Source of the DNA: Pagrus major
Lineage: Eukaryota > Chordata > Actinopteri > Spariformes > Sparidae
Length of the DNA: 64,000 nucleotides
Assembly (NCBI RefSeq): GCF_040436345.1
Contig: NC_133223.1
Span: 22,593,613 to 22,657,612 of the forward strand
Direction of reading: 5' to 3'
Shown here: positions 1-14,520 of the stretch, one piece after another
How positions within the stretch are numbered: position 1 is the first letter of the stretch
Layout of the letters: every line of letters starts with the position of its first letter
Translations under genes and position numbers: made by a program
Notes under the pieces: model-generated
The model's input: the letters and a program-made list of their open reading frames with translations, nothing else
Database searches by the model: none
Told to the model about the DNA's origin: nothing

Positions 1-3000
1 TCCAGGTCTTTGGACCGATTGACTCGAAATCGCTCCCAAATGTGCTCCTATACTGGCTGAACGAGACACAGCAGTCCCCATTGGATTCCGGTGGAATTTG
101 TATTTTTGGTGAATATTTTAGTGAGAAGGGACAATGTTTCATGAGACTGGCTTAAGGCTGGAGTTAGGGTTAGGGTTAGGGTTAGGGTTAGGATTCCGCT
201 TGACCGATTGACTCGAAATTGACCATAAATGTCGCCGGTACTGGCGGAAAGAAGAAACAGCAGTTTTTATTGGATTCCGGTGGAATTTGTATTTTTGGTG
301 AATATTTTAAAGAAAAAAGTGGCCCATTTTTTCAATAGCTTCCAGGTCTTTGGACCGATTGACTCGAAATCGCTCCCAAATGTGCTCCTATACTGGCTGA
401 ACGAGACACAGCAGTCCCCATTGGATTCCGGTGGAATTTGTATTTTTGGTGAATATTTTAGTGAAAAGGGACAATGTTTCATGAGACTGGCTTAAGGCTG
501 GAGTTAGGGTTAGGGTTAGGGTTAGGGTTAGGGTTCCGCTTGACCGATTGACTCGAAATTGACCATAAATGTCGTCGGTACTGGCGGAAAGAAGAAACAG
601 CAGTTTTTACTGGATTCCTGTGGAATTTGTATTTTTGGTGAATATTTTAAAGAAAAAAGTGGCCCATTTTTTCAATAGCTTCCAGGTCTTTGGACCGATT
701 GACTCGAAATCGCTCCCAAATGTGCTCCTATACTGGCTGAACGAGACACAGCAGTCCCCATTGGATTCCGGTGGAATTTGTATTTTTGGTGAATATTTTA
801 GTGAGAAGGGACAATGTTTCATGAGACTGGCTTAAGGCTGGAGTTAGGGTTAGGGTTAGGGTTAGGATTCCGCTTGACCGATTGACTCGAAATTGACCAT
901 AAATGTCGCCGGTACTGGCGGAAAGAAGAAACAGCAGTTTTTATTGGATTCCGGTGGAATTTGTATTTTTGGTGAATATTTTAAAGAAAAAAGTGGCCCA
1001 TTTTTTCAATAGCTTCCAGGTCTTTGGACCGATTGACTCGAAATCGCTCCCAAATGTGCTCCTATACTGGCTGAACGAGACACAGCAGTCCCCATCGGAT
1101 TCCGGTGGAATTTGTATTTTTGGTGAATATTTTAGTGAAAAGGGACAATGTTTCATGAGACTGGCTTAAGGCTGGAGTTAGGGTTAGGGTTACGGTTAGG
1201 GTTAGGGTTAGGGTTCCGTTTGACCGATTGACTCGAAATTGACCATAAATGTCGCCGGTACTGGCGGAAAGAAGAAACAGCAGTTTTTACTGGATTCCGG
1301 TGGAATTTGTATTTTTGGTGAATATTTTAAAGAAAAAAGTGGCCCATTTTTTCAATAGCTTCCAGGTCTTTGGACCGATTGACTCGAAATCGCTCCCAAA
1401 TGTGCTCCTATACTGGCTGAACGAGACACACCAGTCCCCATCGGATTCCGGTGGAATTTGTATTTTTGGTGAATATTTTAAAGAAAAAAGTGGCCCATTT
1501 TTTCAATAGCTTCCAGGTCTTTGGACCGATTGACTCGAAATCGCTCCCAAATGTGCTCCTATACTGGCTGAACGAGACACAGCAGTCCCCATCGGATTCC
1601 GGTGGAATTTGTATTTTTGGTGAATATTTTAGTGAAAAGGGACAATGTTTCATGAGACTGGCTTAAGGCTGGAGTTAGGGTTAGGGTTAGGGTTAGGGTT
1701 AGGGTTCCGCTTGACCGATTGACTCGAAATTGACCATAAATGTCGCCGGTACTGGCGGAAAGAAGAAACAGCAGTTTTTATTGGATTCCGGTGGAATTTG
1801 TATTTTTGGTGAATATTTTAAAGAAAAAAGTGGCCCATTTTTTCAATAGCTTCCAGGTCTTTGGACCGATTGACTCGAAATCGCTCCCAAATGTGCTCGT
1901 ATACTGGCTGAACGAGACACAGCAGTCCCCATCGGATTCCGGTGGAATTTGTATTTTTGGTGAATATTTTAGTGAAAAGGGACAATGTTTCATGAGACTG
2001 GCTTAAGGCTGGAGTTAGGGTTAGGGTTAGGGTTAGGGTTCCGCTTGACCGATTGACTCGAAATTGACCATAAATGTCGCCGGTACTGGCGGAAAGAAGA
2101 AACAGCAGTTTTTATTGGATTCCGGTGGAATTTGTATTTTTGGTGAATATTTTAAAGAAAAAAGTGGCCCATTTTTTCAATAGCTTCCAGGTCTTTGGAC
2201 CGATTGACTCGAAATCGCTCCCAAATGTGCTCCTATAGTGAGAAGGGACAATGTTTCATGAGACTGGCTTAAGGCTGGAGTTAGGGTTAGGGTTAGGGTT
2301 AGGATTCCGCTTGACCGATTGACTCGAAATTGACCATAAATGTCGCCGGTACTGGCGGAAAGAAGAAACAGCAGTTTTTATTGGATTCCGGTGGAATTTG
2401 TATTTTTGGTGAATATTTTAAAGAAAAAAGTGGCCCATTTTTTCAATAGCTTCCAGGTCTTTGGACCGATTGACTCGAAATCGCTCCCAAATGTGCTCCT
2501 ATACTGGCTGAACGAGACACAGCAGTCCCCATCGGATTCTGGTGGAAATTGTATTTTTGGTGAATATTTTAGTGAAAAGGGACAATGTTTCATGAGACTG
2601 GCTTAAGTCTGGAGTTAGGGTTAGGGTTAGGGTTAGGGTTCCGCTTGACCGATTGACTCAAAATTGACCATAAATGTCGCGGGTACTGGCGGAAAGAAGA
2701 AACAGCAGTTTTTACTGGATTCCGGTGGAATTTGTATTTTTGGTGAATATTTTAAAGAAAAAAGTGGCCCATTTTTTCAATAGCTTCCAGGTCTTTGGAC
2801 CAATTGACTCGAAATCGCTCCCAAATGTGCTCCTATACTGGCTGAACGAGACACAGCAGTCCCCATCGGATTCCGGTGGTATTTGTATTTTTGGTGAATA
2901 TTTTAGTGAAAAGGGACAATGTTTCATGAGACTGGCTTAAGGCTGGAGTTAGGGTTAGGGTTAGGGTTAGGGTTCCGCTTGACCGATTGACTCGAAATTG

Positions 3001-4270
3001 ACCATAAATGTCGCCGGTACTGGCGGAAAGAAGAAACAGCAGTTTTTATTGGATTCCGGTGGAATTTGTATTTTTGGTGAATATTTTAAAGAAAAAAGTG
3101 GCCCATTTTTTCAATAGCTTCCAGGTCTTTGGACCGATTGACTCGAAATCGCTCCCAAATGTGCTCCTATACTGGCTGAACGAGACACAGCAGTCCCCAT
3201 CGGATTCCGGTGGAATTTGTATTTTTGGTGAATATTTTAAAGAAAAAAGTGGCCCATTTTTTCAATAGCTTCCAGGTCTTTGGACCGATTGACTCGAAAT
3301 CGCTCCCAAATGTGCTCCTATACTGGCTGAACGAGACACAGCAGTCCCCATTGGATTCCGGTGGAATTTGTATTTTTGGTGAATATTTTAGTGAGAAGGG
3401 ACAATGTTTCATCAGACTGGCTTAAGGCTGGAGTTAGGGTTAGGGTTAGGGTTAGGATTCCGCTTGACCGATTGACTCGAAATTGACCATAAATGTCGCC
3501 GGTACTGGCGGAAAGAAGAAACAGCAGTTTTTATTGGATTCCAGTGGAATTTGTATTTTTGGTGAATATTTTAAAGAAAAAAGTGGCCCATTTTTTCAAT
3601 AGCTTCCAGGTCTTTGGACCGATTGACTCGAAATCGCTCCCAAATGTGCTCCTATACTGGCTGAACGAGACACAGCAGTCCCCATCGGATTCCGGTGGAA
3701 TTTGTATTTTTGGTGAATATTTTAGTGAAAAGGGACAATGTTTCATGAGACTGGCTTAAGGCTGGAGTTAGGGTTAGGGTTAGGGTTAGGGTTCCGCTTG
3801 ACCGATTGACTCGAAATTGACCATAAATGTCGCCGGTACTGGCGGAAAGAAGAAACAGCAGTTTTTATTGGATTCCGGTGGAATTTGTATTTTTGGTGAA
3901 TATTTTAAAGAAAAAAGTGGCCCATTTTTTCAATAGCTTCCAGGTCTTTGGACCGATTGACTCGAAATCGCTCCCAAATGTGCTCCTATACTGGCTGAAC
4001 GAGACACAGCAGTCCCCATCGGATTCTGGTGGAATTTGTATTTTTGGTGAATATTTTAGTGAAAAGGGACAATGTTTCATGAGACTGGCTTAAGGCTGGA
4101 GTTAGGGTTAGGGTTAGGGTTAGGGTTCCGCTTGACCGATTGACTCGAAATTGACCATAAATGTCCCCGGTACTGGCGGAAAGAAGAAACAGCAGTTTTT
4201 ATTGGATTCCCGTGGAATTTGTATTTTTGGTGAATATTTTAAAGAAAAAAGTGGCCCATTTTTTCAATAG
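1..4270 (+). repeat. Higher-order satellite array with embedded telomeric hexamers
   Basis: A nearly perfect tandem array made of two related monomers. One begins at the motif CTTCCAGGTCTTTGG and the other follows a TTAGGG block and begins TTCCGCTTGACCG. Using CTTCCAGGTC as landmark, successive starts are at 339, 679, 1013, 1359, 1510, 1850, 2184, 2450, 2784, 3118, 3269, 3603, 3937 and 4271. The spacings are 334, 340 or 346 bp, except two extra 151-bp monomers (1359-1509 and 3118-3268) and one 266-bp unit (2184-2449) that carries a 68-bp deletion. The unit length equals 310 plus 6 times the hexamer number. Copies differ by only a few substitutions, so homogenisation is recent. The array runs off the left edge of the window. 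Short open frames inside it are treated as by-products of the repeat. Confidence 0.95.
164..4125 (+). repeat. Twelve interstitial TTAGGG blocks
   Basis: Blocks of tandem TTAGGG lie at 164-193 (5 units), 504-533 (5), 844-867 (4), 1178-1213 (6, including one TTACGG variant), 1675-1704 (5), 2015-2038 (4), 2281-2304 (4), 2615-2638 (4), 2949-2972 (4), 3434-3457 (4), 3768-3791 (4) and 4102-4125 (4). Four blocks (164, 844, 2281, 3434) end in TTAGGA instead of TTAGGG. All have the same orientation and the same flanks: GGCTGGAG on the left and TTCCGC on the right. TTAGGG is the vertebrate telomere repeat. These are interstitial, because satellite and then single-copy genes continue to the right. Confidence 0.95.
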
Positions 4271-6335
4271 CTTCCAGGTCTTTGGACCGATTGACTCGAA
4301 ATCGCTCCCAAATGTGGTCCTATACTGGCTGAACGAGACACAGCAGTCCCCATCGGATTCCGGTGGAATTTGTATTTTTGGTGAATATTTTAAAGAAACA
4401 TCGGCCGATTTTTTCAATAGCTTCCAGGTCTTTGGACCCATCGACTCGAAATTTCTCCCAAATGTGGTCCTATACTGGCTGAACGAGACACAGCAGTTCC
4501 CATTGCATTCCGGTGGAATTTGGATTTTTGGTGAATATTTTAAAGAAATGTCAGCCGATTTTTTCAATAGCTTCCAGGTCTTTGGACCCATCGACTCGAC
4601 ATTTCTCCCAAATGTGGTCCTCTACTGGTTGAACGAGACACAGCAGTTCCCATTGGATTCCGGTGGAATTTGTATTTTTGGTGAATATTTTAAAGGAAAA
4701 AGTGGCCATTTTTCATGAAAACCTCGGCCCATTTTTTCAATAGCTTCCAGGTCTTTGGACCGATTGACTCGAAATCGCTCCCAAATGTGGTCCTATACTG
4801 GCTGAACGAGACACAGTAGTTCCCATTGGATTCCGGTGGAATTTGTATTTTTGGTGAATATTTTAAAGAAACGTCAGCCGATTTTTTCAATAGCTTCCAG
4901 GTCTTTGGACCCATCGACTCGAAATTTCTCCCAAATGTGGTCCTCTACTGGTTGAACGAGACACAGCAGTTCCCATTGGATTCCGGTGGAATTTGTATTT
5001 TTGGTGAATATTTTAAAGGAAAAAGTGGCCATTTTTCATGAAAACCTCGGCCCATTTTTTCAATAGCTTCCAGGTCTTTGGACCGATTAACTCGAAATCG
5101 CTCCCAAATGTGGTCCTTTACTGTCTGAACGAGACACAGCAGTTTCCATTGGATTCCGGTGGAATTTGTATTTTTGGTGAATATTTTAAAGAAACATCGG
5201 ACGATTTTTTCAATAGCTTCCAGGTCTTTGGACCCATTGACTCGAAATTTCTCCCAAATGTGGTCCTATACTGGCTGAACGAGACACATTAGTTCCCATT
5301 GGATTCCGGTGGAATTTGTATTTTTGGTGAATATTTTAAAGAAACATCGGACGATTTTTTCAATAGCTTCCAGGTCTTTGGACCCATTGACTCGAAATCG
5401 CTCCCAAATGTGGTCATATACTGGCTGAACGAGACACAGCACTTCCCATTGGATTCCGGTGGAATTTGGATTTTTGGTGAATATTTTAAAGAAAAGTGGC
5501 CATTTTTCATGAAAACGTCGGCCCATTTTTTCAATAGCTTCCAGGTCTTTGGACCCATTGACTCGAAATTTCTCCCAAATGTGGTCCTATACTGGCTGAA
5601 CGAGACACAGCAGTTCCCATTGGATTCCGGTGGAATTTGGATTTTTGGTGAATATTTTAAAGAAAAGTGGCCATTTTCCATGAAAACGTTGGCCGATTTT
5701 TTCAATAGCTTCCAGGTCTTTGGACCCATTGACTCGAAATTTCTCCCAAATGTGGTCCTATACTGGCTGAACGAGACACAGCAGTTCCCATTTGTATTCC
5801 GGTGGAATTTGTATTTTTGGTGAAGATTTTAAGAAAAGTGGCCATTTTTCATGAAAACGTCGGACGATTTTTTCAATAGCTTCCAGGTCTTTGTACCCAT
5901 TGACTCGAAATTTCTCCCAAATGTGGTCCTATACTGGCTGAACGAGACACAGCAGTTCCCATTGCATTCCGGTGGAATTTGTATTTTTGGTGAATATTTC
6001 AAAGAAAAATTACCATTTTTAGCGAATACACTGCCCGATTTTTTCAATAGCTCCGAGGTCATTTGAGCCATCGACTCGAAATGAATGGCCAAATGTCTTG
6101 TTATACTGGTAGAATGAGACACAGCTGCTTTCATTAGATTTTGGTGGAATTTCTTTTTTTCATGAATATTTTAAAGAAAAATCCCCATTTTTAGCGAATA
6201 CACCGCCCGATTTTTTCAATAGCTCCGAGGTCATTTGAGCCATCGTCTCAAAATCAATGGCCAAATGTCTTGTTATACTGGTAGAATGAGACACAGCTGT
6301 TTTTATTGGATTTTAGTGGAATTTCTTTTTTTCAT
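4271..6335 (+). repeat. Diverged monomeric flank of the satellite
   Basis: The same satellite without telomeric hexamers. Landmark starts at 4271, 4421, 4571, 4744, 4894, 5067, 5217, 5367, 5538, 5709, 5880, 6051 and 6223 give monomers of 150 or 171-173 bp. The longer form carries about 21-23 extra bases (an AGTGGCCATTTTTCATG-like piece) before the landmark. Monomers diverge progressively to the right. The last two (6051 onward) have a changed landmark (CTCCGAGGTC), and the array dissolves into unique sequence near 6335. This is the expected profile of an old array edge. Confidence 0.9.
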
Positions 6336-8633
6336 CTGAATGCATGAATTATATTTGTAACAGTATTTTTACACTGCAGTATTGCTAATTTTACTGAAGT
6401 AAGAGATCTAAATACTTCATCACTGGTTTTAAAGTCAAATGATCAGTTAAATGGAGATCAACCATGTGTAGTCAAAGGCTATTTTTCAGTAAAAGACACC
6501 TGTATCTGCAAACAAGTATTTCACATTTAATATTTCGCATTAATTCAGATAATTTTGTTATCTTATCTACTTTGATTCAGTGTGACATGATTTTATTGGC
6601 ACTCTATGTCACGGGCTAACCTACATCCACTTGACAGTGCACATTTGTTCTAAGCTTGATGGCCACATGGCACAGTGAGTCAAATGTTACACTTTGTATG
6701 AAAGTCATCATTGCTGTGGTAACAGTTCGGGGAGAGAGTGAGAGATGGGGATAGATTGGACTTGGATCAGTCCAACTGCGGAGGCCCCAGGCAAAAAAGT
6801 TGGCACAGTTTCCCTGAAAAGATGGCAGAGGAATTTACATAATAGGCATTACTCCCCTCAGTTTGTATGTAGGTCAGTAGCTGCAGTCAGACAGGCTCTC
6901 CACTCCATCCCGATCAGCAGTCGGCCGCCTAAGGCAATAGACTCTGGAGTCTACCAACCCAGGAAAAGGCACATCACTTCACTGACCTCTTTAAATCTTG
7001 TTTGACTCGCAGATAAGCGCAAAAACAGAGATCAGAGAAACATCAAAAGAGCTGTCGCCGACTCAAGAGCATTTACAGTTACACAAGCAGCACATTTGTG
7101 ATTGTAATGAGCGTGCACATGTAATCCTGCTTTTATGTGGCTGATTTGTTCTGGTAAACATGAATTGGAGGACAGACCCAGCAACAGGGAGCTGGAGGAA
7201 CATCAGTGACATGAGACGATTGTCAAAGCTGTGGTTATCTGTCGAGTGCCAGGCACTGAGTCTATGGACTGCAAATTTACCATATCCTGTCACACATATG
7301 ATGGCTTATGTATAAAATGTAACCTTCACAAACATTTTATATTCATTTATATCCTTGGGGATAACAGCTCAACTACATACCTAACATAAAAAAACGACAA
7401 CTTCTTCTCCTCTGTCACTTCTTCTAATGTGTAACATACTGATAAAACCTGGAAAAATTACATCTACAGTTTGTGAACTTGCATTAAATTTTATATTTCA
7501 TCAAATTTCAACCCAAATTAAACCAGAAGACAGTCATGATCACTCAGAATCTCCCTGATATTGTGAGGGTGTTCTGTCTTTCTAACAATAGAAGTACACA
7601 CACAAACATACACACACACACAAAGACACACACAACAGGTGCAGAATGAGGACCGGCTGTGAATATACTGGATGCAGTGTTACACAGGCAGCTTGTGGAC
7701 AGGAAGCTGTGGATATACTGTAAATGCTGGACCAAAGCTGGCAGAGGGGGTCATCAGATCATCAATTATTCAGCACCACCAGACAAGGACAATCACTTGG
7801 TGTCAGCAGGACTGGCAGACAAAATGTCCGGCTCCATTTGGAGCTTTGACTGGTTGACTCTGCTATTCACTGCATTATATATTATGACAACTCTGATCAC
7901 CATGTGGTCTATGTTTGTAGGCTGACTTGTGCAAAAAAATATTGCTTTATTTCATATCAAGGATGAGACATGAAGGGAGAGATGACAGTGGCTCAGAAAC
8001 AGTGTATTCACATTAAAACTTCACAGTAAACAACGACTTACAGACATAAAATTAAACAGTGCACAGCATTTACATTTCCCCTATTCATGCATCTGAAAAA
8101 GTGGCATCAAAGTAGGTTTGTACAATACATTTCTACATCAAAAGAGTCGACCATTGCAATTACATGAAGCCCTATGATTTGAGTACAAATGCTACAAAGT
8201 AGGAAGAGAACATTCATGAAATCTAGGATGTGTCATTGATCCAATAAGGTTCACATATGTGGGAAAAAAACAGTCAAAAAGTCAATGTGCTCCTCAGGTA
8301 GACAAACAGCATATTCTGGTTTAGACTCTTCACTATCCACATGATGACGCAGACATGATTGATGAACCAATGATTGTGTACATGCAAGGTTAAACCAATA
8401 CAAGTGGCTGATATAGGCAATTTGTTAAGTATAAAATCTGGTCCAGAGTGATGCGGAGGATGTGAATCTGTTTGTTTGATTGCATATTTGCTGTAGGACT
8501 CGTCAGTGCTACGCTGTTTATCTATGGAGAGACCTTAACATGAATAATATAATTTTTATCTAGATTAGATTTTGACATGAGCCAATGCTTCATGACAACA
8601 ACACTGTAATCTGCTCTTATAGGTCCATACCAA
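6336..8633. other. Gene-free stretch, no coding potential seen
   Basis: AT-rich single-copy sequence between the satellite and the probable 3' end of sowahc. I see no exon with a homologue, no RNA gene and no clear transposon. A short CA-rich tract lies at about 7596-7633. The only functional candidate is a poly(A) signal on the minus strand near 7950. Confidence 0.5.
7947..7952 (-). terminator. Candidate poly(A) signal for sowahc
   Basis: AATAAA on the minus strand, followed by GCAATATTTTTTTGCA, a plausible cleavage and T-rich context. It is the first canonical hexamer I found downstream of the sowahc stop, which would give a 3' UTR of about 2.8 kb containing the transposon at 8634-9684. 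A nearer non-canonical signal is possible. Confidence 0.3.
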
Positions 8634-10771: not shown

Positions 10772-11239
10772 TCATCCAAACAGGTTGGACAGTGGGCGGG
10801 TTCGGAGAGGGCTAATGGGGTGCTCCTCTGCTCTTCCCACCTCCCCCGGGTCCCTGAAGGAGGCGCTGTGGATGATCTGGGCTCGGTGGCGTCCTCGATG
10901 CAGCCGCGCATTAAGTCGGCTCAGGGACGACTTCCTCTGCATCCCCCCCTTGGTCCTCCCAGCCGCCATCGCGTCCTCTGCTGACTCGGCGGGTGGGTTC
11001 AGGAGTCGCAGCGGATTCAGGTTGCCCGGGAGGACTCTGGGAAACCTCCAGCCACGCCCCCAACTGCTGCTGCTGCTGTTGGTGTTCTCATTGTCGGACT
11101 CCGCTCCTGGTGAGAGGACCACTCCCTCCTCCTGCAGGTCGGCAGCCAGCGGTGGGGAGAGGTACTGGATAGCTCGCCTCCCGCTGTAGTCTCGAGCCTC
11201 AGGGTCCGCCTCCCAGTCGGACAGCAGCACACGGACCAC
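10772..11239 (-). CDS. sowahc: sowahc coding exon 4: last ankyrin repeat and C terminus
   Basis: The acceptor is TTGACAG. The exon encodes VVRVLLSDWEADPEARDYSG, a Ser/Gly-rich region, a basic segment (KSSLSRLNARLHRGRHRAQI) and the terminal NLFG followed by a stop. An equally long frame on the opposite strand is an antisense shadow. Confidence 0.9.
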   Translation of the reverse strand: MVRVLLSDWEADPEARDYSGRRAIQYLSPPLAADLQEEGVVLSPGAESDNENTNSSSSSWGRGWRFPRVLPGNLNPLRLLNPPAESAEDAMAAGRTKGGMQRKSSLSRLNARLHRGRHRAQIIHSASFRDPGEVGRAEEHPISPLRTRPLSNLFG

Positions 11240-14200
11240 CTGTCAATCAAAGCACATCGCAACCTGTCATTTATATAGAATTTACTGGTGACTTATTGGC
11301 TAAGATTTCTCTGATAGCAGCACTGTACATCTTTAAATTATATCAAATGAAACTGTGTCTAAACAATAATCAAACATGTCAACATCTCTGCTGCCATCTA
11401 TAGACAATATTATGACATAACTGATAACACACATTATCTTTTCAACTCATTTTGTGTAAAAAAAAAAAAAACAGTTGATACAAATTACGTTTGCTCATTC
11501 ACTCGTAAAAAGAGGAACATAAATGATTCTAGCAGGAGCAGACAGAGCGTATACAATTATCCCCTGCGTCACTGAGCCGGTGTAACACATGACACCAAAC
11601 TCCCACTGCCGTGCAACCCACCTGTGTGTGTCCATGCATGGCTGCCAGGTGTAGCGGCGTGTATCCTGCACTTGATCTCACGTTTACATTCACAGGTACA
11701 GCGTTCTCCTTGGCGAAGGCCAGCAGCTGGGAGAGCAGCTCAGCTTTGCCCTGCTTGGCCGCCCAGTGGAGGCAGGTGAAGCCGGTCACAAAGTCTCTCT
11801 TGGTCACCAGGCCGGGTTCCACGGCGAGCAGTGACTGCAGGCTTTCCCACAGGCCATCTGAGGCGCACAGCATCCACTCGTGTTCCAATGGGTCCAGGGT
11901 CACTGAAGCGCAGTCCTCGTCGGTGGCCGAGGAGAGGAGCGAGGTCGAGTCTCCGTCGCTCCTCACTGAGTCCCGAAGACGTGAACCACGGTTGATCAGA
12001 GACCTTCGAACCTGCAGGGAACAGAAGCATTTAATACAATGATTGTTTCGTTTTGTGCCACTGATGAATGCTTTATGGAGGAATAAATACAGCTTTTAGA
12101 CAAGTTTTCTGCAAATTCCCTGCTAAAATGGCTCTTCACAGGAGCTCAGCGGCACTGTAAATAACAGTTACACAACACTTAAATGTTCTAACCACATGCA
12201 TTATTTATTGTCTTTTGGGGGAGACCAACTAAGCAAAAGTAGGCCAGATACCAAGGTATTAAGCACTGTGTTCAGCATACTTAAGGAACAGAAACAGGTT
12301 ATTATAAAGATGTCTTCGACAATAAACACTCCTATGATCCTATATATCCTATGATGATCAACAAAGGAGGTAATCATAATAAGAGGTCAAGTTGGCTAAG
12401 AGTTACGGCAAGCTACATTACATCACTGTGTCAGATTTCTCAGTTACATAATCCAGATGCTGTGGAGTCAAACAGTGTTATCTGTCAGCTGTCAAAGGCT
12501 GTGCTCTTGGTCATGCAAGTAACATGAAAAGGCAGGGGAACCTGCTTAATTTCACCTACGGATGACTGTGCGGCATTCAGGTTTTGCATCACACCCAAAG
12601 GTGAAGCACCTGCTGTGACATCCCTGGTTTAGGTGTGGTCAAAAGTATGACATGGTTCAAAGTTTGAAACAATCAAAAGCGGCAGCATAATCTGTTGTAT
12701 TTGAATCCCATTTTCATAAACATACTTTCTCTCGTGCTCAGATTGTTGATAATGCTGCCATGAAAATAAATAATAAAATAATCTACTTGGAAGGTTTTTC
12801 ATACCAGGTAAACACGGTATCCTACCTGAGGAGAACTACTCATCATCAGCTCGATGAAGTTCCTGCGACTCCCCTTGGGCGTATTGATGTCTCCGACAGG
12901 GTCCAGCCCTTCCAAGGCGCTGTCCTCGGACAGGCAGCTGATGAGCATGGCCCGCTGGGACCCTTTGGACACCCTGCGTGCACCTCTCACCTGCTGGCTG
13001 TGGGACCCTGCAGAGTGAGCCTGCTCCAGATCTAGCACCCCAATCACTGGGGCCGACTCACGCCTCCTCCTCTCCCTCAGCTTCACCTCCCCTCCTCCTC
13101 CTCCTCCAGAGGTAGGAGACGTTGCATTGGTCTTATCATTCTGGGAGGGGTCTGCAGGTTGGTCATTGCCGTTCGACTGTTTTTCATTGTCCAGGCTTGC
13201 TGCTGGTTTGCTGGATGCTCCTGTGGAGAAAGGTTTTTCTTATTATTGTCATCCATCTCTGACTCCAAAGCAACCTTATCATTATAATCCCCATAGGTAT
13301 GCATAAGGGATAGCCTCGTTTTCCTCTTTGCTTTTATTATAATCCTGAATTATTGTGAACTCTTTTGATTACTTTAGTCTAAGACAGCATAGTAGGGATT
13401 GGCCTTCATAAACAATGGCCCGACAATGATATTTGTTAAAGGGGCACTATGTAGTTTCAGAGAATATTTACAATATCAACGAAGTAATAATACAAACTCA
13501 GAAATATGTGTTTGACTGAATTAACAAGCTGTTCTCAGAGGAAAATAAGGTCCCCAGAAAACATTTTGAAACTAGAAAGGCGGGGTCCGCCAAATATAAG
13601 CAAAGTAAAACAGTATGAAATTGTGTTGTCCTTTAAGGTCAGCTGGTTGATTAAGTTCATCCAGTCATGAAAACCAAAGAGATTGTTTATTTAGGCATAA
13701 AAAAAATCAGTCAATGAAGATCTTTCTCTTCTGATTAAAATTTCTTCCCTAAAACTACAAACTGCACCTTTAATGTTAGTGTTATTCAGAGGTCCAATGT
13801 AAAGTATGGGGGGGGGAGGCAGATGTAACGCCACTGATTACATAAATATGCAATATGTAAGATTAAAAACATATATACGTTTACATATATCTTTAGACAA
13901 TTAAGTCACCACACAATAACATGGATTAAATCAACGTGAAGTGTGTGTCCCTCACCTGTTTGCTCTCTGTTGTCGGGGTTGCCGTTCACATAGTTGTTGT
14001 CGTCCACCGTCTCCTGGATGTTACCGTTGCACTCAGCGTGATCGTGGCCGCCTGTGTCCGCACGCATCGCCGACTCCGCGCTGCCTTCTGCCTTCAAGCA
14101 CACAAATTTCACGCCGTCCTCCACCTTCACGAAAGCCACGCTGTCCACGATGCGAGTCAGCGCCTCACGGTCCACCCTTTCCTTCGACTGGTCATTTTCT

Positions 14201-14313
14201 CCCCGAGCTGATAGGAAATGATCGATCAGCTCCATCTGTCGGACCCTCCCTCCTCTCTCCATCAGGAACTCCTGCACGGCTCGCTCCGTGCGCTGGGACG
14301 CCATCATCATCAT
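10772..14313 (-). CDS. sowahc: SOWAHC-like ankyrin repeat protein (complete, 4 coding exons)
   Basis: Join, minus strand: 14313-13956, 13220-12826, 12011-11622, 11239-10772, giving 1611 nt and 536 residues. Phases (1, 0, 0) fit across all three introns. Residues about 5-75 form the N-terminal SOWAH winged-helix region (QEFLMERGGRVRQMELIDHF, then VKVEDGVKFVCL). Residues about 120-250 are a low-complexity linker with a Gly run and a basic RERRRRES patch. Residues about 290-410 carry the ankyrin repeats (DFVTGFTCLHWAAKQG, SAGYTPLHLAAMHGHTQ, VVRVLLSDWEADPEARDYSG). The C terminus ends RPLSNLFG, like the RPKSNVFG end I recall for mammalian SOWAHC. The molecular function of the family is poorly known; ankyrin repeats suggest protein binding. 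Family membership is clear. The C paralogue is assigned from length (human is about 525 residues), the C terminus and the septin10 neighbour. Mammalian SOWAHC is, to my knowledge, a single coding exon, so the introns are notable. Confidence 0.88.
11622..12011 (-). CDS. sowahc: sowahc coding exon 3: ankyrin repeats
   Basis: Acceptor CCTGCAG and donor ACACAG|GTGGG, 390 nt, phase 0 to phase 0. It encodes LDPLEHEWMLCASDG, then two ankyrin motifs (TGFTCLHWAAKQG and AGYTPLHLAAMHG). The second helix of the last repeat is split by the intron and continues in exon 4. Confidence 0.9.
12826..13220 (-). CDS. sowahc: sowahc coding exon 2: linker
   Basis: Acceptor CTCCACAG and donor CCTCAG|GTAGG. The exon completes a Gly codon and encodes a low-complexity linker with six glycines, a RERRRRES basic patch and a conserved-looking segment ending IELMMSSSPQ. 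It ends in phase 0. Confidence 0.85.
13436..13773. mobile_element. TTAA-flanked MITE in sowahc intron 1
   Basis: A 338-bp element starting TTAAAGGGGCACTATGTAGTTT-like and ending with its imperfect reverse complement AAACTACAAACTGCACCTTTAA-like, without any coding frame. This family is familiar from other fish genomes. The terminal inverted repeats and TTAA flanks are seen directly. Confidence 0.8.
13956..14313 (-). CDS. sowahc: sowahc coding exon 1: SOWAH domain
   Basis: Starts with four consecutive ATG codons (14313 down to 14302). The fourth has the best context (A at -3, G at +4), so translation may begin at 14304. It encodes the SOWAH domain and an acidic tail ending NREQT, then the first base of a split codon. 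The donor is CAAACAG|GTGAGG. Confidence 0.88.
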
Positions 14314-14520
14314 CCCCGAACGACGGCCCGTACGGAGCGCGGAGACGGCTCAAATGTGTCGCACTAAAACGTTTCAAAATGACCCCATGTTCGCGTTCAT
14401 GTCATTCACGGAGGTCGGTGACGACGGATGACAGCATCTTCTCTCCCGGGTTCCTCCTCTCCTCCGCGGGGAGTGTCGGGCTCTGGCAGATAGGGGTCGC
14501 ACGTAGTTGAGCAGACGGCT
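13990..14520. promoter_or_regulatory. CpG-rich region at sowahc 5' end
   Basis: A GC- and CpG-rich block covers sowahc exon 1 and about 200 bp upstream, in contrast to the AT-rich surroundings. This is typical of a vertebrate CpG-island promoter for the minus-strand gene. No TATA box was identified. Confidence 0.55.

Follow-up and report, generated by a model that had tools for sequence, protein, structure and literature searches.

Introduction

The sea breams contain a satellite DNA that is associated with telomeric sequences and was first described in 1998, and the locus reported here is thus of a known kind. According to passages citing Garrido-Ramos 1998, the DraI satellite occupies subtelomeric positions in several sparids and, on some chromosomes, interstitial ones as well (PMC5615363), and for Pagellus erythrinus an association with telomeric sequences was found by sequencing and a subtelomeric location by FISH (PMC12467311). 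A further passage on the sparid DraI satellite of Garrido-Ramos et al. 1998 is contained in PMC3851750, and PMC3975639 makes the same statement for several animals.

The locus in Pagrus major shares with the DraI satellite, as far as it is portrayed in these passages, the sparid host, the association with telomeric sequences, the regularly spaced DraI sites, and apparently the presence of some arrays at contig ends and of others at interstitial positions, a likeness judged by description. It differs from that portrayal in being an A/B dimer, in having a telomeric block that is mostly 6n bp long, in the presence of two block subfamilies, and in higher-order segments. Among the papers listed in our searches, no title or abstract opening describes the dimer, nor does any mention two classes of block or an array polarity, which is no proof that they are unpublished; the polarity can be regarded as the newer lead.

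Further repeats are comparable in part. Short interstitial telomeric sequences (ITS) inserted at double-strand breaks (PMC8537989) are likewise made up of a small number of TTAGGG hexamers in the interior of a chromosome, but they are described as single loci, whereas in P. major the tract recurs in thousands of satellite copies. Heterochromatic ITS, e.g., those of the Chinese hamster (PMC6410037), likewise have telomeric hexamers as a satellite component. However, there large hexamer blocks are a main component, in contrast to the short blocks of 18-36 bp within a plain unit of 328-346 bp in P. major. The RUSI satellite of Rumex induratus (PMC12467311), likened here by description, is also telomere-associated and contains degenerate telomere motifs, but belongs to a plant system. 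Lastly, the EcoRI centromeric satellite of Sparidae (187 bp) occurs in the same genome and has a similar monomer length. The locus offers a genome-scale view of how a telomeric tract becomes a fixed component of a satellite, because one genome shows a block-free form, two block-bearing forms, and higher-order amplification.

Results and Discussion

Organization of the Array

The window, i.e., the whole stretch of 64,000 nucleotides that was analyzed, comprises positions 22593613-22657612 of contig C9, in a genome of 786 Mb in 25 contigs. It contains the following satellite features, all on the plus strand:

1..4270, plus strand: 12 satellite units (A plus one or two 151-bp monomers; one A shortened by 68 bp)
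164..193, plus strand: example of a telomeric block, n = 5, final TTAGGA
504, 844, 1178, 1675, 2015, 2281, 2615, 2949, 3434, 3768, 4102, plus strand: starts of the remaining telomeric blocks
208..358, plus strand: example of a B monomer, 151 bp, without block, dimer partner
1379..1529, plus strand: additional 151-bp monomer, first "151-bp insertion"; 5' half A-like, 3' half B-like
3138..3288, plus strand: additional 151-bp monomer, second "151-bp insertion"
2227..2247, plus strand: site at which an A monomer has lost 68 bp (deletion junction)
4291..6340 (end approximate), plus strand: block-free relatives of 150, 171, and 173 bp, with the greatest divergence at the array edge

All 12 TTAGGG blocks of positions 1-4270 lie on the plus strand. 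The anchor GGAGTTAGGG starts at positions from 160 to 4098, with successive spacings of 340, 340, 334, 497, 340, 266, 334, 334, 485, 334, and 334 bp. The hexamer numbers n are, in the order of the blocks, 5, 5, 4, 6, 5, 4, 4, 4, 4, 4, 4, and 4, if the final TTAGGA of four units and one TTACGG are taken as hexamers. The initial annotation had proposed a spacing of 310 + 6n with n = 4-6, and this formula is obeyed by 11 of 11 intervals, given an additional 151 bp in two of them and a loss of 68 bp in one. The spacing results from a dimer of an A monomer of 159 + 6n bp, which contains (TTAGGG)n, and a B monomer of 151 bp; the complete satellite unit consists of A and one or two 151-bp monomers. 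The two apparent insertions are whole additional 151-bp monomers, and the loss is a deletion of exactly 68 bp within one A monomer, with its junction near 2227. The junction word of this deletion occurs a single time across the nine stretches that were compared.

Two points of the initial annotation need correction. The flanks of the block were thought to be identical in all twelve copies; in fact, 10 of the 12 units share one 25-bp 5' flank and 11 share the 3' word TTCCGCTTGACC, whereas TTAGGA, which co-occurs with GTGAG upstream, ends 4 of the 12 blocks. Furthermore, the satellite extends beyond positions 1..4270, as block-free relatives continue to about 6340 and the array reaches about 200 kb further to the left. 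The left part of the window thus contains the right-hand end of an array that spans about 206 kb on C9, the left limit of which is at about 22.3935 Mb according to the first monomer anchor. Three portions of this array were read, comprising 20 kb on the left, 9 kb in the interior, and 30 kb adjoining the window, and we infer the continuity of the remainder; in the portions read all blocks are on the plus strand and N are absent. The array is interstitial, at 22.4-22.6 of 35.1 Mb, i.e., at 64% of the contig.

The satellite monomer had no further match in the rest of the window at E 0.001, and the window yielded neither an Rfam match at the gathering threshold nor a tRNA. When one A monomer was folded in silico as DNA, its fold was weaker than those of shuffled versions (z +2.07), of which 196 of 200 fold equally well or better, and therefore no stable folded structure is claimed for it. 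At least four GGG runs are present in 278 of 317 blocks, a measure of G-quadruplex potential by GGG-run counts alone. The satellite presumably has no coding function, and it may have a heterochromatic or end-protecting role.

Relationship to the DraI Satellite and Other Sparid Repeats

Positions 1-6400 of the window contain 24 DraI sites, and in silico digestion of the block-bearing part results mostly in fragments of 334, 340, and 151 bp. Elsewhere, fragments of 151, 334, 340, and 328 bp are found on C18, and fragments of 361 bp on C9 and of 361-389 bp on C5 occur in addition. As the in silico fragments are consistent with the published DraI descriptions, the satellite would most likely be the DraI family itself, or otherwise a close relative; a regular fragment ladder would be expected from the name of the satellite.

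The EcoRI 187-bp repeat had no blastn match in the window (E 1e-5) or in the satellite loci that were compared. Primer sequences for this repeat and for G608 were taken from Table A1 of PMC12731029. The EcoRI satellite primer has 15,797 exact sites genome-wide, mostly at multiples of 187 bp among the 100 matches listed. The P. major primer pair G608 has 20 sites, and at all three that were read its product has exactly the published length of 234 bp. Both results indicate a sparid host, very probably P. major. The G441 forward primer was found genome-wide, and the G441 primers were absent from the loci first compared.

Distribution of the Satellite and Its Two Subfamilies

Across the genome, the pattern for the junction between the A monomer and its block is matched 4,893 times with up to two mismatches (3,506 forward, 1,387 reverse), while the reversed control pattern has no match, so that the matches are not attributable to chance. 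The places are known for the first 100 exact matches listed, and junctions or long satellite matches are present on at least 14 nuclear contigs. One junction pattern had no exact match in the viral_contigs collection, and one 30-base monomer pattern had none in the genome_contigs collection, which is what DNA of a fish would lead one to expect.

The position of the block was analyzed in a sample of 203,200 bases from seven contigs (C2, C4, C5, C9, C10, C13, and C18), in which junctions up to 60 bases and blocks up to 45 bases from the limits of a stretch were skipped. Hexamers follow 389 of the 392 block-side junctions, in agreement with the proposal that they are an integral and co-amplified part of the satellite; the other three junctions each carry the same inserted element. 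One and the same monomer position was found by the test for 380 of 390 blocks. By eye, eight of the other ten are variants at this position, in which either the hexamer run is interrupted or the flank is shortened, and two are breaks at array edges. Blocks at many unrelated positions were searched for in these 203,200 bases, and none was seen.

From the end of one block to the next, the spacer is mostly 310, 461, 482, 331, or 612 bp in nine joined stretches. The claim that the unit length changes through hexamers alone is not supported in this form, since steps of 151 bp alter it as well; e.g., on one stretch of C18 (C18b) 29 spacers have plain 310 bp and 28 have 461 bp. In total 317 units between two exact anchors were parsed, which omits blocks without an exact anchor; 243 have a short block, 73 a long block, and one was unparsed. 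The short blocks have 18, 24, 30, or 36 bp in 219 of 243 cases, and the rest are compound or irregular. The long class consists of (TTAGGG)n, an interruption, TAGGG, TTAGGG, TTACGG, and then the end GTCTTTTGACC. The number of perfect hexamers at the block start ranges from 1 to 6, and the longest parsed block has 80 bp, so that long, mainly TTAGGG blocks as in heterochromatic ITS are absent from the 317 units.

The pure-hexamer block of the window represents one of two subfamilies. It is probably the later, derived form, because the interrupted subfamily is found on C5 and C9 and also on C2, C4, C10, and C13; this wider spread suggests that the long, interrupted class is older than the pure-hexamer class. 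The mean divergence of short-class units with a 310-bp spacer is 1.1% within C9, 1.4% within C18, and 2.6% between C9 and C18.

Changes of Unit Length

Units that are identical outside the block tend to have blocks of equal length, as is the case for 331 of 382 pairs in the 310-bp short class and, among units of the 461-bp short class, for 75 of 121. Where the units of a pair differ twice outside the block, their block lengths are unequal in 273 of 355 and 56 of 78 cases. The hexamer number thus tends to be passed on in duplicated segments. Pairs that differ by a non-multiple of six also exist, their source being compound blocks and a 29-bp form. Long repeated runs of unit types were observed on C18b (longest run 11, shuffle maximum 6) and on the right part of the C9 array (7, shuffle maximum 5). 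No excess over the shuffles was seen for the left part of C9, C18c, C5a, and C5b, nor for C18a, where the longest run is as long as the shuffle maximum. From the inheritance of block length and the repeated runs we infer that slippage within the tract would lead to gain or loss of single hexamers, and that unequal exchange would lead to gain or loss of whole 151-bp monomers and of multi-unit segments.

Contig Ends and Polarity of the Arrays

Six of the 48 nuclear contig ends have only N in the bases taken, and 42 were readable. The satellite is present at 3 of these 42 (both ends of C13 and the right end of C10; the terminal 400 to 10,000 bases were read), and telomeric hexamer runs are present at 6 of 42. 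The contig ends are probably incomplete, because most of them lack telomeric runs. The right ends of C1 (L059) and C21 (L076) terminate in the EcoRI centromeric satellite.

Nineteen array clusters were obtained among the matches listed, and the majority of them are interstitial. In 17 of the 19, the TTAGGG strand is oriented toward whichever contig end is nearer (one-sided binomial 0.00036), with positions entered by hand and clusters that are not independent of one another. Counted by contig, the polarity is toward the nearer end in 12 of 14 cases (0.0065). Two cases deviate, namely a single listed copy on C1 and the cluster on C2. Because of the EcoRI centromeric satellite at the right ends of C1 and C21, the nearer end is not always the one away from the centromere. 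The polarity is therefore a lead and not a finding.

It is conceivable, albeit unlikely, that arrays are kept with the TTAGGG strand toward the nearer chromosome end since exchange between non-homologous ends survives only in this orientation. Arrays would then be oriented whether they are terminal or lie megabases inside, and the exchange might be mediated by shelterin-bound or G-quadruplex-forming blocks. If so, the satellite would be a dispersed substrate for end-to-end exchange or for backup end maintenance. If the polarity holds in better assemblies, it would provide a test of satellite spread via chromosome-end exchange.

Origin of the Telomeric Block

We regard it as probable that the satellite as a whole is of the sparid subtelomeric type and originated by one acquisition of TTAGGG, followed by amplification of a dimer and its spread. 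On a single occasion, the 3' end of a satellite monomer of 171/173 bp would have gained a short tract of TTAGGG; the resulting A monomer would have been amplified as a dimer with the block-free 151-bp partner B, and the dimer would have spread to many chromosomes. The unit anatomy, the one block position in the sample, the two subfamilies, the inheritance of the hexamer number, and the occurrence on at least 14 nuclear contigs were observed directly. The proposed order of events is deduced, within one genome, from the situation at the array edge and from the wider spread of one of the subfamilies. Against the overall reading stand the presence of the satellite at only 3 of the 42 readable contig ends, the location of the window array at 64% of its contig, and the stretches in which runs of unit types stay within the shuffles.

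A single acquisition with subsequent amplification is the best reading, because block-free 171-bp relatives persist at the array edge and on C19. The relatives at 4291..6340 may represent the form before the acquisition. An array of block-free 171-bp monomers is present on C19 (23.60-23.69 Mb, plus strand) and matches four consecutive edge monomers in steps near multiples of 171 bp, with 90-93% identity in nearly all of the full-length matches listed; the alignment lengths leave no space for blocks. By eye, the word TTTCATGA of the A monomer resembles a word in the 171/173-bp edge monomers, and A resembles a 171/173-bp monomer in which the block has taken the place of roughly the final 28 bases.

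A direct descent of the A/B dimer from the 150 + 173-bp dimers at 4441-5236 was also considered. It was dropped, because the 3' part of B is nearest to the 173-bp type (0.982) and not to the 150-bp type (0.891-0.926).

The initial annotation had proposed a single capture followed by amplification. One origin fits the data, but the hexamers may have come by capture from a telomere, by insertion at a break, or by growth in place, i.e., the expansion by slippage of a TTAGGG-like word within the monomer, without capture of a telomere or insertion by telomerase. Growth in place is a possible origin, although we would not expect it to be the true one. It would explain that the block substitutes for a stretch of the monomer and is not cleanly set between monomer halves, as well as the second subfamily with interrupted hexamers, and PMC9693754 names in-place birth as one route to short interstitial tracts. 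However, A monomers that have just a short seed are absent from the sample, in which every junction is followed by hexamers or carries the inserted element, and the exact vertebrate telomere hexamers and the polarity toward the nearer end fit somewhat better to capture.

Elements Inside and Beside the Arrays

An element of 958-960 bp, which has the ends CCCTCTAGGCGCC and GGCGCCTAGAGGG and is bordered by TTAA on either side, occupies one and the same TTAA site of the A monomer in three arrays:

C9, 29.2 Mb (stretch L015, 4662-5621): copy of the element
C18, 1.94 Mb (stretch L024, minus strand): copy of the element
C2, 29.66 Mb (stretch L084, minus strand): copy of the element

From its TTAA sites and ends, we take the element to be piggyBac-like. 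An inverted relative (about 89%) is located at about 6003-7014 of L015.

The edges of the arrays on C9 at 29.2 Mb (L015, to 3989) and on C18 at 1.91 Mb (L023, minus strand, to 8616) have flank pieces in common over about 3 kb. This common flank is repeat-rich, with, e.g., 93% identity over 1,338 bp among the matches listed, and both array edges break exactly at a hexamer block. Such edges, and the insertion of the element at the same site on C9, C18, and C2, could indicate that a mobile element carries the satellite as cargo. We consider this improbable, as the element sits within the satellite and does not surround it, and common flanks are equally explained by exchange of segments between chromosomes. 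A misassembled or misplaced subtelomeric array, which the interstitial location in the window and the lack of telomeric runs at most readable contig ends might suggest, is very improbable in view of the absence of N from the sampled array parts and from either edge, the distinguishable subfamilies and higher-order patterns, the junctions or long matches on so many contigs, and the interstitial DraI loci described for Pagrus auriga in a passage of PMC5615363.

The window also contains part of an ankyrin-repeat gene at 11529-12092 on the minus strand (Pfam Ank_2, E 1.4e-11), which is presumably SOWAH-like. Three open frames near it, from 10772 to 14346 of the window, had no Pfam match. C25 is 17,031 bp long, and its start resembles, by eye, the tRNA-Phe/12S region of vertebrate mitochondrial DNA. 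At the left end of C11 (L081, 1-984), CCCTAA repeats directly adjoin an open frame of 301 aa with a GIY-YIG domain (Pfam E 2.2e-5), an arrangement for which we assume Penelope-like elements to be the parallel.
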